NCBI GenBank assembly: GCA_008081395.1
Contig: VMCJ01000151.1
Coordinates: 1-33,074, forward strand
Length of the DNA: 33,074 nucleotides
Source: Rhodospirillales bacterium
GTDB taxonomy: Bacteria > Pseudomonadota > Alphaproteobacteria > Bin95
Direction: 5' to 3'
Position 1 is the stretch's first letter; every line of letters starts with the position of its first letter. Shown one piece after another: positions 23,725 to 31,958 of the stretch. The notes under the pieces are model-generated. The model searched no databases, was not told the origin of the DNA, and saw only the letters and a list, made by a program, of their open reading frames with translations. A program made the translations under genes and the position numbers.

Positions 23725-24158
23725 AGAAGCGAGTGGGTGATCCATGGATACCCGCAAGCGAGTATGGGCGAGCATTACGGGGCTTTGGCGTTAATCTGCT
23801 GGTAAAAGAAATTGTCGTCTCTGTTGAATTCGCTAAATCAGTCCTCCAAGCTGAGGTATTATACGCGGATCCCGATTTTGCAGTGCTACGGCGCCAAGAT
23901 ATGGAGTGGATGCTTCATGCCGACCATACCTATGAGAAGCATCCAATGATAAATTGTCTTAGCTCCGACGGCTCCCGTGGCTCAGGCATTGAACTCCGAA
24001 TACATGGCCTAGACCCTGATGAAGCGGAGAGATGTGCCCGTAGCCGCGGAGATCGGATCCTTGCTAGCGCAATAGACAAAAAACACGGACTGCGCGAAGT
24101 ATATATTCTCGACCCAGATGGATATCTCTGGGTACCCGACGTGCCAACGCGAGATTGA
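23721..24158 (+). CDS. VOC (glyoxalase/bleomycin-resistance) family-like protein
   Basis: 145 residues with a vicinal-oxygen-chelate-like pattern: GFGVNLLVKEIVVSVEFAKS as the first beta-alpha unit, YADPDFAVLRRQDMEWMLHA, GIELRIHGLDPDEAERCARS with a candidate metal-binding Glu and the typical D.dea.rar helix, and a REVYILDPDGYLWVPD end. VOC proteins include epimerases, lyases and dioxygenases, and the reaction here is unknown. It overlaps the NpdG-like gene by four bases, and the synthetase starts 22 bases downstream, so all are likely co-expressed. Confidence 0.8.
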   Translation: MKKRVGDPWIPASEYGRALRGFGVNLLVKEIVVSVEFAKSVLQAEVLYADPDFAVLRRQDMEWMLHADHTYEKHPMINCLSSDGSRGSGIELRIHGLDPDEAERCARSRGDRILASAIDKKHGLREVYILDPDGYLWVPDVPTRD

Positions 24159-24180
24159 ATTATCTTCAGGAGAGTTCTGC

Positions 24181-26127
24181 ATGAATGGCGATGAATTCGT
24201 ATGGAACCCTTCGAAAGATCTAATAGACAACGCCAATCTGACTGCATTCATTCGAAAGTGTGATGTAGCTGATTACAAAAGTCTTGTTTCCTGGTCGGAT
24301 GAAAACCCCGAAGAATTTCATCAAAAGCTATTCGATTTTATAGATCTTCGTTTCTTCAAGTGCCCGGATCAAATTGTTGATGAAGCTATGGGGCCAGCAT
24401 TTGCTCAATGGTGTAAGGGCGGAACCACTAACGTAGCGCTCAACTGTCTTGATAAATGGAAAAATACGCCAACCGACAGCAAGGTAGCGATCGATTGGGA
24501 AGGAGAAGACGGGACCACAAAGCAGTTAACGTACGCTGAGGTGCGAACACAGACAAATCACCTTGCTGGGGGTCTTCGCAAGCTTGGCCTGGGATCTGGT
24601 GACGTGATCGCAATGTATCTTCCAAATATACCGGAAGCTGCAATAACACTTTTAGCCGTCGCTAAGATTGGCGGTATTGTACTCCCTATGTTTTCCGGAT
24701 TTGGTGGTGACGCTCTACTTGCCCGCCTGAATGACAGTAAAGCCAAAGCTATCATTACAGTTGACGGCTCTCCACGAAGAGGGCGTGCTGTTCCAGCTAA
24801 GGCAATTGTTGATGAGATAGCAGACCAAGCGCCCAATCTTCAGCATGTTATAGTTGCAAAGCATTGGGAAGCACCTCACGACTGGACGGAAGCACGTGAC
24901 CACTGGTGGGGTGACTTGACAAGAGATATGCCTGACGAGGTGGCAACCGCGGAAGTGGATGCCGACAGTCCTTTTCTTCTCATTTACACTTCAGGGACTA
25001 CGGGAAAGCCTAAAGGTGTTGTGCATAGTCATTGTGGCTTTCCCGCCAAGCTTGCCCTCGATCTATCCATTTGTATGGATTTCAAGCCGGATGACAGACT
25101 TATGTGGATGTCAGATATGGGTTGGCTTGTTGGCCCAATTCTTGTCTACGGAGGCTTCCAGCTAGGCGGAACAGTAGTTTTAATCGAGGGGGCTCCCAAC
25201 TACCCAGAAGCAGATCGATACTGGAGACTAATTGCCGACCACAAAGTCTCTTGGCTTGGCATTGCTCCAACCATCGTGCGAACCTTGATGGTAAACGGAC
25301 CCGAACAACTGAACCGTCATGATCTCTCCAGTCTCCGTATTTTTGCCTCTACTGGCGAAGCTTGGGATGAACCTTCATGGCTCTGGCTCTTCAATGCAGT
25401 AGGGAAAGGAAAGCTACCTATTCTCAATTATTCCGGAGGAACTGAAGTAGGAGGCATCGTTGCTACCACAGTTATTCATCCTCTCAAGCCATGCGCTTTT
25501 TCAGGCCCAGTGCCAGGAGTCGGAGCCGACGTAGTGGATGAGTTTGGTAAATCAGTCACTCCTGGCGAAGTCGGTGAACTAGTCATGCGGCGCCCCTCCA
25601 TTGGACTGACGCGAGGCCTTTGGAATGACAATGAAAGATACCTACAAACCTACTGGAATATTATTCCAGGAATGTGGGTGCACGGCGATTTTGCCAGTAG
25701 GGCATCAGACGGCACATGGATGGTACATGGTCGCTCCGACGATACACTAAAGATTGCTGGAAAACGCACTGGACCCGCAGAAATCGAAGCACTTTTGATG
25801 GGGACACAAAAGCTAGTCGAAACTGCAGCTGTGGGTGCACCTCATCCAGTCAAGGGAACGACTATTATTTGCGTATGCCAGGTCCGAACGAATGTTGTCG
25901 CTAACGATGCACTGAAAGAAGAATTAGCGGAAGTTGTGGCTAGCGGGCTTGGACGCCCCTTTCGACCGAGTGAAGTTATTTTTGTTTCAGACCTTCCCAA
26001 AACACGAAATATGAAAATCATGCGGCGAGTTGTAAGAGCAGCATACCTTGGCCTCGAGACCGGTGATTTAAGCTCGTTAATTAATCCAGAATCTGTGGAG
26101 GAGTTAAGCTGCCTCCGACGCTCTTAG
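24181..26127 (+). CDS. Acyl-CoA synthetase (AMP-forming, acetyl/acetoacetyl-CoA synthetase-like)
   Basis: 648 residues from the ATG at 24181, supported by AGGAG at 24168-24172; an in-frame reading from 24118 runs into the preceding gene. It activates a carboxylic acid to its CoA thioester through an acyl-adenylate. The N-terminal ACS-type segment is followed by the P-loop YTSGTTGKPKG at 269-279, STGEAWDEPSW, GRSDDTLKIAGKRTGPAEIE and the catalytic lysine K612 in TRNMKIMRR. The acetyl-CoA synthetase pocket motif WWQTE is replaced by NYSGGTE, closer to acetoacetyl-CoA synthetase, so a larger acid than acetate is likely. It is the last gene of the plus operon, and 99 bases without a gene follow. 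Confidence 0.92.
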   Translation: MNGDEFVWNPSKDLIDNANLTAFIRKCDVADYKSLVSWSDENPEEFHQKLFDFIDLRFFKCPDQIVDEAMGPAFAQWCKGGTTNVALNCLDKWKNTPTDSKVAIDWEGEDGTTKQLTYAEVRTQTNHLAGGLRKLGLGSGDVIAMYLPNIPEAAITLLAVAKIGGIVLPMFSGFGGDALLARLNDSKAKAIITVDGSPRRGRAVPAKAIVDEIADQAPNLQHVIVAKHWEAPHDWTEARDHWWGDLTRDMPDEVATAEVDADSPFLLIYTSGTTGKPKGVVHSHCGFPAKLALDLSICMDFKPDDRLMWMSDMGWLVGPILVYGGFQLGGTVVLIEGAPNYPEADRYWRLIADHKVSWLGIAPTIVRTLMVNGPEQLNRHDLSSLRIFASTGEAWDEPSWLWLFNAVGKGKLPILNYSGGTEVGGIVATTVIHPLKPCAFSGPVPGVGADVVDEFGKSVTPGEVGELVMRRPSIGLTRGLWNDNERYLQTYWNIIPGMWVHGDFASRASDGTWMVHGRSDDTLKIAGKRTGPAEIEALLMGTQKLVETAAVGAPHPVKGTTIICVCQVRTNVVANDALKEELAEVVASGLGRPFRPSEVIFVSDLPKTRNMKIMRRVVRAAYLGLETGDLSSLINPESVEELSCLRRS

Positions 26128-26226
26128 TTCTGAATTTAATTCATTCAGACACACCGTTATGCGCTAGCAAAAACACTCAAAAAGTATTTTCATACTGCCG
26201 AACCATCACCACCTCGAGGAGTTAAA

Positions 26227-26838
26227 ATGGCGCGCATTCCTATTTTAGATGAAAATGATCCTGACCTTGATCCAAACGCTCGTACTGCACTTCAGGCGGC
26301 GGGTGCTGCTCGTGGCCGAATGATCAATATACATCGGGCTATGGCTAATCGGCCGGAGGCTCTTGTTGCATTCTCAAATTTTCTAACAACCGTCTATCGG
26401 CAAGACTCAACGCTTAAGCCTCACCACGGTGAGCTCGCATACCTCACAGCCACCACAGTTAATAATTGCTTTTACTGAATTCCGACACACACAGCGCTCG
26501 GTCGGGTGCTAGGACTGACGGAACAACAAATGACACACCTACTGGATGATCCACTGCCAGCAGGCATTTACAGTCCAGAAGAGGCTGCGATTGTGCGATA
26601 TGCGCGTAAAGCAACTACAATGGCTCCAATCGATAACGAAACCTACGGCGATCTAAGTAGGCATTTCAGTGACCAGCAAATCATAGATCTCTGCCTAACT
26701 GTTGGGCTCAGCAATATGGTGAACCGTTTCCACGCCACCTTCCTGACAGATGTAGATGCCGATACTCTGGCGGAGGTTGATGACGGTAATGCGAATGGGG
26801 TCTGCCCTATTCCCATCCCTCCTTTACCAAAAGGATAA
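26227..26838 (+). CDS. Predicted selenoprotein: CMD/AhpD-like peroxidase-related protein with in-frame TGA (Sec84)
   Basis: Reading through the TGA at 26476-26478 as selenocysteine gives one 203-residue protein of the carboxymuconolactone decarboxylase/AhpD superfamily. The halves on each side are in the same frame and each matches its half of the domain. The redox site reads NNCFYUIPTHT: C81, U84 and H88, with E69 twelve residues before C81. This spacing equals the E118/C130/C133/H137 set of mycobacterial AhpD. A hairpin with a GGUC loop follows the TGA (separate entry). The start is the ATG at 26227 with GAGGAG upstream. A thiol-peroxidase or disulfide-exchange role is inferred. The alternative is a nonsense mutation or sequencing error that happens to fall at this one codon. 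Confidence 0.85.
26493..26510 (+). promoter_or_regulatory. Candidate bacterial SECIS hairpin
   Basis: AGCGCTC (26493-26499) pairs with GGGTGCT (26504-26510): seven contiguous pairs, two of them G-U, closing a four-base GGUC loop. The first loop G lies 22 nt after the last base of the TGA, within the distance usually required for SelB-dependent decoding in bacteria. The loop contains the GGU core also present in the apical loop of the E. coli fdhF SECIS (AGGUCU). The element lies inside the coding sequence, as is usual in bacteria. Confidence 0.75.
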
Positions 26839-26843
26839 GTTTA

Positions 26844-27992
26844 ATGCCCTCCGGACCGCTTAATGGCCTCAAAGTTGTAGAAATGGCTGGAATAGGACCC
26901 GCACCTATGTGCGCAATGCTGCTGGCTGATCTGGGTGCTGAAGTGATTAGAATCGATCGCTTAGAACCTAGCGGCCTAGGAGCCCCCCAAGAGCGAAAAT
27001 ATGATCTTTTGCTGCGCAGCAGACCGTCTATCGCAATAGACCTTAAGCAAAAAAACGCTGTAGATCTTGCGCTTCGTTTAATTGATACCGCAGATGCTGT
27101 GATCGAGGGATTTAGACCAGGAGTAATGGAACGCCTTGGTCTTGGCCCTGAAGTATGTCTAGCCCGAAACCCAAAGCTGGTTTTTGGCCGAATGACAGGA
27201 TGGGGCCAGGAAGGACCAATTTCGCATGCAGCTGGACATGATCTGAATTACATAGCTCTAGCTGGAGTGTTGCACGCTATCGGCCGCAAGGGTGGACCTC
27301 CAACACCTCCACTTAACTTGGTTGGGGATTTTGGTGGAGGCACGATGTATCTCGCCTTCGGTGTTATGTGCGCATTGTTCGAAGCTGGAAAAACAGGGAA
27401 AGGTCAAGTCGTTGATGCCGCAATGGTGGACGGAGCAGCTTCCCTGATGACAAGTTATTTTGGCCATTTTGCTTCAGGGTTTATGACTAGCCGGCGTGGC
27501 GAAAATATGAATGACTCAGGGGCCTATTTTTATGATGTTTATGAGTGCTCTGACGGGAAATGGGTATCACTTGCCCCAATAGAAGCTAAATTTCACGCTG
27601 AACTTTTAGAACGGTTAGGAATTAATCCTACGAGCCTTCCAGAACAGTGGGACAGATCTTCATGGGACGAAGTTAAGGCTCGTTTAGGCGTCATATTTAA
27701 GACCAAAACACGGGCTCAATGGCAAGAAGAATTAGAGGGCACGGATGTCTGCTTTGCGCCAGTGTTAGGACCAGACGAGGCACCAAACCATCCCCATCTC
27801 GCCAGTCGCAAAACCTTCATTGAGGTAGACGGTATAGTGCAGCCCGCGCCTGCTCCCCGTTTCAGCAACCATTCATCCCCTATGCCTACCGCGGCAGAGG
27901 CACCTTCTCCTGAAAATTCAGTAGCAGCTCTAAAACACTGGCTCCCTGAAGGAGAACCTGAAGCTCTACGGAAATCCGGCTTATTCGGCTGA
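26844..27992 (+). CDS. Alpha-methylacyl-CoA racemase (CaiB/BaiF class III CoA-transferase superfamily)
   Basis: 382 residues. The fold family is clear from LNGLKVVEMAGIGPAPMCAM and LADLGAEVIRIDR. The racemase-type catalytic set is present: H132 in AGHDLNYIAL, D162 in NLVGDFGGGT and E247 in APIEAKFHAEL. Spacings of 30 and 85 match the H126/D156/E241 set of mycobacterial MCR, so a racemase is favoured over a CoA-transferase, where the key Asp sits elsewhere. It would interconvert (2R)- and (2S)-methylacyl-CoA so that beta-oxidation can proceed. It starts 5 bases after the predicted selenoprotein, and its 3' end overlaps the convergent GMC gene by 12 bases. Confidence 0.92.
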   Translation: MPSGPLNGLKVVEMAGIGPAPMCAMLLADLGAEVIRIDRLEPSGLGAPQERKYDLLLRSRPSIAIDLKQKNAVDLALRLIDTADAVIEGFRPGVMERLGLGPEVCLARNPKLVFGRMTGWGQEGPISHAAGHDLNYIALAGVLHAIGRKGGPPTPPLNLVGDFGGGTMYLAFGVMCALFEAGKTGKGQVVDAAMVDGAASLMTSYFGHFASGFMTSRRGENMNDSGAYFYDVYECSDGKWVSLAPIEAKFHAELLERLGINPTSLPEQWDRSSWDEVKARLGVIFKTKTRAQWQEELEGTDVCFAPVLGPDEAPNHPHLASRKTFIEVDGIVQPAPAPRFSNHSSPMPTAAEAPSPENSVAALKHWLPEGEPEALRKSGLFG

Positions 27993-29600: not shown

Positions 29601-29732
29601 GAAAGGCTCCTGCTGGCGATTTCAATCAAAGGTTCGGATCAGAGGACCACTTGTCAACATCAGCAGATAGCTCACGATGAGACCTTGAGATTATTATTTT
29701 GTCAAAAAACAGAACTAACAAGGAAACCTTAC

Positions 29733-30500
29733 ATGAGTTCTCTGGACCCACACCGCCAGGCAATCAAGGATGATTTCATTAAAAACCGTGGTTACTGGAT
29801 GGACATCTGGGAGGAAATGCTTCGATTAAACCCTGACTTTTTTAAGGCATATACTGACTTTTCGTCAGCTCCTTGGAAGCACGGAACATTAGAGCCAAAA
29901 GTAAAAGAGTTTATGTACATTGCTGCAGATGCATCGACGACTCACCTCTATAATCGAGGTACTCGTGTCCATATACAGAATGCTCTTCGGCATGGCGCAT
30001 CAGAAGAAGAAGTTTTTGAAGTTCTAGCAATGACCAGCGTACTTGGCATTCATAGCTGTAGCCTCGGCATTCCAGTACTAATTGAAGAGTTACAAGCCGC
30101 TGGGAAGCTAAACAAACCCAAAATTGATGAACGGCGTCAAAAGATCAAAGATGAATATATTAAGGTTCGTGGGTATTGGTCCGAAAGACAGGAGGACATG
30201 CTGGCAATGGCTCCTGAGTTCTTTGAGGCATACTTAAACTTCTCTGGCGCACCTTGGCGAACCAACGTGCTCGAGCCAAAGGTCCGCGAATTCGTCTATA
30301 TAGCGATCGATGCATCTACAACTCATCTCTATGAACCAGGGCTGCGTCTACATATCAGAAATGCGATCGGTTATGGGGCAAGCCAAGAAGAATTAATGGA
30401 AATACTGCAGCTGATAGCCGCCCTAGGGATACACACCATGACTGAAAGTTTACCGATCCTTACCCAAGAAGCGGCAAAAGCCAAAAATAAGAAAGGTTAA
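29733..30500 (+). CDS. Tandem CMD-domain protein
   Basis: 255 residues from the ATG at 29733, with AAGGAAA upstream; an in-frame reading from 29685 adds 16 unrelated residues. It contains an internal duplication: residues about 11-120 and 138-248 are both CMD-like units and align clearly (IKDDFIKNRGYWMDIWEEML with IKDEYIKVRGYWSERQEDML; EPKVKEFMYIAADASTTHLY with EPKVREFVYIAIDASTTHLY). Each carries TTHLY..G.R.HI and no CxxC, so it is not a thiol-redox AhpD type; gamma-carboxymuconolactone-decarboxylase-like chemistry or a structural role is possible. Its end lies 7 bases from the end of the convergent SDR gene. Confidence 0.88.
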   Translation: MSSLDPHRQAIKDDFIKNRGYWMDIWEEMLRLNPDFFKAYTDFSSAPWKHGTLEPKVKEFMYIAADASTTHLYNRGTRVHIQNALRHGASEEEVFEVLAMTSVLGIHSCSLGIPVLIEELQAAGKLNKPKIDERRQKIKDEYIKVRGYWSERQEDMLAMAPEFFEAYLNFSGAPWRTNVLEPKVREFVYIAIDASTTHLYEPGLRLHIRNAIGYGASQEELMEILQLIAALGIHTMTESLPILTQEAAKAKNKKG

Positions 30501-31412: not shown

Positions 31413-31958
31413 ATGGCCAGAGTACAAGTTCTTAAATCTCCTTCTGAGCTTTCAGGTGAAGCTCGTCGCATCGCAGAGAAAATTGTCGACACCCGTAAAT
31501 CTCTTGATGGACCATTTTCAGTATGGATGCATGCCCCAGAATGGGCTGAGCGTGTGGCCCATCTTGGAACCTTAGTTCGTTGGGAGGGAACACTAGAGCT
31601 AAGAACCCGCACACTCGCCGCGTTAGTAGTCGGTCTTCATTTCCAAGCTCAATACGTCTGGGGGATACAGGGTGTTATTGGTGCCGAACGAGGAGTGCCG
31701 CGGTCAACTATCGATGCAATCCGGGAAGGTCGTTCAGACGGGATCCCACCGGACGACCTACAAATAATAGAATTCACGCGTGAGCTTCTTAGCAAAAATC
31801 GTGTGTCTTCAGCTCTTGCTGATGCAGTTATGGAAAGGCTTGGCGCAGATCAATATGTGCAATTAACCACCTGCATTGGATACTATGCCATGCTCGCGAT
31901 GACTGTGAACGGCGTTGAACTGGAGCCTAATCCCACTCATGAAGCACTTGACGTCTAA
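31413..31958 (+). CDS. CMD-family protein, single domain, degenerate active site
   Basis: 181 residues from the ATG at 31413, with GAGGAA upstream. The fold pattern is that of carboxymuconolactone decarboxylase-like proteins: GPFSVWMHAPEWAERVAHLG, ELRTRTLAALVVGLHFQAQY, and EFTRELLSKNRVSSALADAV with TTCIGYYAMLAMTVN near the end. The usual EW..H or C..C...H active-site segment reads QYVWGIQGVIG, lacking both the cysteines and the histidine. It is therefore not a thiol peroxidase, and its function is unknown. It may be co-transcribed with the monooxygenase starting 108 bases downstream; that interval shows no gene. Confidence 0.85.
   Translation: MARVQVLKSPSELSGEARRIAEKIVDTRKSLDGPFSVWMHAPEWAERVAHLGTLVRWEGTLELRTRTLAALVVGLHFQAQYVWGIQGVIGAERGVPRSTIDAIREGRSDGIPPDDLQIIEFTRELLSKNRVSSALADAVMERLGADQYVQLTTCIGYYAMLAMTVNGVELEPNPTHEALDV

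Follow-up and report, generated by a model that had tools for sequence, protein, structure and literature searches.

A probable selenocysteine codon in the CxxU active site of a CMD/AhpD-like gene from an alphaproteobacterium

One reading frame across a TGA

Two open stretches in the same frame are parted only by a TGA (26476-26478) in the window, by which we mean the whole stretch of 33,074 nucleotides that was analysed. Does this codon end one gene ahead of another, mark a gene that has decayed, or encode selenocysteine (Sec) within a single gene? The original prediction favoured the last of these. The window corresponds to contig 17 in a draft genome of 2.57 Mb (176 contigs, 96% complete), and the locus forms one frame from ATG 26227 to TAA 26836-26838, with codon 84 as its sole in-frame TGA. 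The start codon is preceded by a good ribosome-binding site, and the read-through product has a predicted mass of 22 kDa. The gene and the codons discussed below are as follows.

26216..26221, + strand: Shine-Dalgarno-like GAGGAG ahead of ATG 26227, by direct reading
26227..26838, + strand: predicted CMD/AhpD-like selenoprotein gene, complete, 203 codons, TGA as Sec84, TAA stop
26431..26433, + strand: Glu69 codon, AhpD-type relay
26467..26469, + strand: Cys81 codon (TGC), which opens the CxxU motif
26476..26478, + strand: putative Sec84 codon TGA
26488..26490, + strand: His88 codon, AhpD-type relay
26803..26805, + strand: Cys193 codon, C-terminal GxCxI Cys, invariant in 4/4 Sec homologues

Translation across the TGA restores a CMD/AhpD domain, as had been claimed: the Pfam CMD domain (PF02627) spans residues 43-124 without a break (37.4 bits, above the gathering score of 23 bits; E 2.6e-9). 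The TGA falls exactly on the second Cys of a CxxC motif (Cys81-Phe-Tyr-Sec84), and E69, C81, Y83, U84 and H88 have the predicted spacings of an AhpD-type relay (12, 3 and 4), with Sec replacing the second Cys. An ordinary list of open reading frames cuts this gene into products of 83 aa and 110 aa, the second restarting at GTG 26506, which is the split that gene callers had been expected to make. Two separate proteins would yield exactly such a list. However, the CMD domain runs over the TGA, the second ORF would be without the entire catalytic motif, and codons 85-92, which belong to neither ORF, are nearly invariant in both DNA and protein. We consider two separate proteins very improbable.

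The TGA occurs at the identical codon in G010 (same genus, 92% protein identity), in G009 (another genus of the same family, 70%) and in G040 (an alphaproteobacterium of another order, 33%). The G010 and G009 sequences are also present, with identical DNA, in alphaproteobacterial MAG records. The genomes are draft assemblies, which might suggest an error in place of TGC or TGT, but since independent assemblies at 92, 70 and 33% identity share the TGA, it is not a sequencing error. A general reading of TGA as Trp is likewise excluded, because TGA is the commonest ordinary stop in the window (closing 13 of its 26 genes) while TGG is used 128 times in the same genes. Sequencing or assembly error and general recoding, taken together, seem to us next to impossible.

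As TGA serves as an ordinary stop in the window and a Cys codon can mutate to TGA, the locus might also be a pseudogene, that is, a CxxC CMD gene inactivated by a nonsense mutation. Against this, the same TGA persists down to 33% identity and into another order with both halves conserved, the genome encodes Sec machinery (see below), and silent changes prevail downstream of the TGA. Between the window and G010, codon differences are 24 silent and 3 replacing before the TGA and 34 silent and 14 replacing after it; judged from these codons, purifying selection acts on both halves. The downstream half, described originally as undecayed, stays open for 119 sense codons, an openness expected with P about 0.0025 in random sequence of the same composition. 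On this comparative evidence, the conserved TGA orthologues largely refute the pseudogene reading, to which we give very little credence.

Across 385 genomes sampled from the class, nothing passed E 1e-17 except the window's gene, its G040 homologue and one CxxC relative (L057, 29% identity). The Cys looked for at residue 84 of homologues is carried by CMD proteins with CxxC from the same family and class; these are paralogues (23-29% identity), in which Cys aligns with Sec84. No Cys84 form of the orthologue itself was found among the genomes compared, and a search of viral contigs and plasmids returned no relative. One further candidate Sec codon, the TGA of L032 in G011, was rejected as the ordinary stop ending a CxxC CMD gene.

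Selenocysteine machinery and a SECIS-like hairpin

The proposed search for sel genes recovered SelA, SelB, SelD and tRNA-Sec(UCA), the full set that a selenoprotein requires of its genome. SelB (438 bits, cut-off 242) adjoins SelA (522 bits, cut-off 268) on contig 27, SelD (284 bits, cut-off 125) lies on contig 46, and tRNA-Sec (71.5 bits, gathering score 47; anticodon TCA by ARAGORN) lies on contig 168. These genes belong to the window's genome as far as the binning of this draft, with its 176 contigs, is right. SelA is present in 12 of the 14 genomes of the window's family, the TGA-bearing G009 and G010 among them.

SelD is the C-terminal part of a frame of about 720-738 aa (G000:C46:4374-5258; L061:3198-5366), the N-terminal half of which appears to resemble a pyridine-nucleotide oxidoreductase. 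This is probably an Ndh-SelD fusion, a kind of protein already known from the GOS survey, in its account of such fusions (PMC2398784). Elsewhere in the genome, the formate-dehydrogenase-like genes have no TGA, a search for SelW found none and a search for a WAxxUGC protein found no close homologue. When in-frame TGAs were scored by codon usage, the bias was too weak, and even the CMD selenoprotein gene scored near zero.

Immediately after the TGA, the sequence can fold into a hairpin.

26480..26523, + strand: predicted hairpin of the bacterial SECIS kind; 26493-26499 pairs with 26504-26510 in the upper stem, and GGUC (26500-26503) forms the apical loop

It has a 7-bp upper stem and a 4-nt GGUC loop, lies 21 nt past the UGA and has a predicted energy of -16.4 kcal/mol. 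These values lie within every limit of the bSECIS model as set out in a 2026 catalogue, namely a loop of 3-9 nt, an upper stem of 4-16 bp, a G within the first two loop positions, a distance of 16-37 nt from the UGA and a minimum free energy of at most -7.5 kcal/mol (PMC13188914). We also made 2000 synonymous reshuffles of a 15-codon stretch that left the protein sequence and the local codon usage unchanged. A fold at least as stable, with a loop of this kind, appeared in 0.05% of them for the window, 0 for G010 and 0.1% for G009, these three well-folding hairpins coming from related genomes. The G040 gene has a GGUC loop at the same distance, with a fold that is not unusually stable, and supports the loop but not the stability of the fold; the LGR codons beneath the loop are conserved as protein too. 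Silent sites in codons 85-100 are conserved beyond the rest of the gene, at 13/13 against 108/166 elsewhere compared with G010 (P 0.010) and at 10/14 against 39/122 compared with G009 (P 0.006).

Comparison thus shows, at the level of sequence, a single gene with a conserved TGA and a SECIS-like hairpin in a genome with the sel machinery, and from this we infer Sec insertion at residue 84. It is very probable that 26227-26838 is one intact AhpD/CMD-fold selenoprotein gene, in which SelB and tRNA-Sec(UCA) would decode the TGA as a redox-active Sec84.

Active site, fold and known relatives

Selenoproteins of this kind have been described before, and the caution in the original prediction that the family may not be new was justified. 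A 2005 study of the Sargasso Sea reported 4 sequences of CxxU selenoproteins with a CMD domain (PMC1088965), GOS added 70 in 2008 under the name AhpD-like 2 (PMC2398784), and one row of the 2026 catalogue lists a 'CMD-like protein', MBW1767730.1 (PMC13188914). As these families are described, they share with the window's protein the PF02627 domain, a CxxU motif with Sec in second position and a stem-loop directly after the UGA. The descriptions of the CMD-domain and AhpD-like 2 proteins in those papers, on which alone our comparison draws, include no complete gene in a comparable setting. The window's gene is apparently an uncatalogued example of a CxxU CMD/AhpD-like kind of selenoprotein known since 2005.

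Among NCBIfam models, the best match is that of AhpD-like 1 (COG2128/TIGR01926 peroxidase-related, CxxU; E 2.5e-16), with domain and motif in common, but at 60 bits the window's protein falls below the cut-off of 81.8 and is no member by the curated rule. NF041238 (AhpD_rel_CFYUT) shares the CFYU motif, yet the score of 24.2 bits against a cut-off of 175 indicates a different subfamily, as do the 32.3 bits against a cut-off of 310 for NF053654 (GroundWater_YciW (seleno)protein). Ordinary ORF calling cuts through the active site, and the protein stays short of the cut-off in every current NCBIfam model. Cys193, in a GxCxI tail, is present in all four Sec homologues and missing from the CxxC paralogues; it is possibly a third redox centre. 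With scores under all NCBIfam cut-offs and this conserved C-terminal Cys, the subgroup appears to be new, the 2005 and 2008 sequences being compared by description only. It is well supported and has its own SECIS-like element, which is enough to seed a new annotation model.

PA0269 of Pseudomonas aeruginosa (2ijc, 2o4d) has the same fold and a Glu/Cys/Tyr/Cys/His relay with identical spacing, Y83 of the window's protein being matched as well. It differs in having Cys in the place of Sec and in its shorter chain (145 aa). Its relay comprises Glu36, Cys48, Tyr50, Cys51 and His55, and that of M. tuberculosis AhpD comprises Glu118, Cys130, His132, Cys133 and His137 (PMC3141380).

By analogy with this family, the redox chemistry of the putative enzyme might proceed as follows. 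SelB and Sec-tRNA(UCA) would recognise the hairpin after the UGA, and selenocysteine would be inserted at residue 84. The AhpD/CMD-fold product would then have a Cys81-Phe-Tyr-Sec84 redox centre with a Glu69/Tyr83/His88 relay. Sec84 would most likely be the attacking selenol, reducing a hydroperoxide or other oxidised substrate. A Cys81-Sec84 selenenylsulfide would form next, to be reduced by a thiol donor. As a tractable protein, it would let one ask what advantage selenol over thiol brings to an active site of the AhpD type.

An AlphaFold2 model of the protein is all-helical (pLDDT 86.7, pTM 0.84). In a Foldseek search with this model, the best matches were CMD/AhpD-like structures, led by the debrominase Bmp8 and SMU.961 and followed closely by peroxidase-related and PA0269 structures. 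The predicted structure fits a thiol/selenol redox enzyme, and a peroxidase, a disulfide reductase and a dehalogenase would all be compatible with it. Perhaps, then, the protein is a selenoprotein but no peroxidase, and Sec84 takes part in substrate chemistry such as a Bmp8-like reductive dehalogenation or a reaction on the operon's acyl-CoA. This would rival the proposed chemistry only and leave the Sec reading intact. It would suit both the CMD-fold debrominase as top match and the acyl-CoA catabolic surroundings in the window and G010, but Foldseek scores for AhpD-like structures are nearly equal to that of Bmp8, the AhpD-type relay is complete, and the operon is not kept in G009 or G040. 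We regard such substrate chemistry as rather unlikely.

Genomic setting

The gene lies between two genes of acyl-CoA metabolism.

24118..26127, + strand: AMP-forming acyl-CoA synthetase, preceding gene
26844..27992, + strand: next gene after a gap of 5 nt, a homologue of alpha-methylacyl-CoA racemase (8rmw, 1x74)

The original prediction placed an undescribed gene, ending just ahead of its neighbour, in an operon with an alpha-methylacyl-CoA racemase. The close spacing was found as described, and the downstream gene is a true racemase homologue (E 4e-113). The novelty of the gene stood less well, the kind being catalogued already and the setting confined to the window and one sister species, G010; it is found neither in G009 (70%) nor in G040 (33%), and the racemase setting is therefore local. 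The G010 locus runs from acyl-CoA synthetase through nitronate monooxygenase, epoxide hydrolase and acyl-CoA dehydrogenase to the Sec gene and then the racemase. At 26128-26226 of the window, about 3.5 kb with the three middle genes of G010 is missing, while the remainder is collinear at 83-89% DNA identity. An acyl-CoA catabolic setting for such a gene appears to be new, although it is not kept beyond the genus. A fuller proposal would make these proteins an undescribed, possibly always-Sec alphaproteobacterial CMD subgroup with a three-centre Cys81/Sec84/Cys193 relay, one lineage of which was recruited to a branched-chain acyl-CoA catabolic operon; in this complete form, we think it unlikely.

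In G009, the Sec gene has a different neighbour: the racemase is not beside it, and a second selenoprotein gene lies 124 bp away in divergent orientation. Its product is a ResA-like protein with a WAxxUGC motif, the TGA being codon 139 (L053:3777-4876, minus strand; G009:C304:12186-13283), and scores 296 against NF041054 (cut-off 300). Its orthologues in G011, G012, G013 and G040 keep the TGA. Just past the selenoprotein pair comes a nitronate monooxygenase that shares 77% identity with the G010 enzyme. Neighbouring selenoprotein genes, Prx-like 1 and AhpD-like 2, have also been noted on one GOS read in the survey's account of these families (PMC2398784). That the CMD selenoprotein works with partners in thiol redox chemistry is no less probable than a tie to its racemase setting.

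Near the selenoprotein gene, two other ORFs of the window also resemble CMD proteins. The one at 31413-31958 has no Pfam match and is CMD-like by eye, and the one at 29685-30500 has two CMD stretches by Pfam, with no CxxC.
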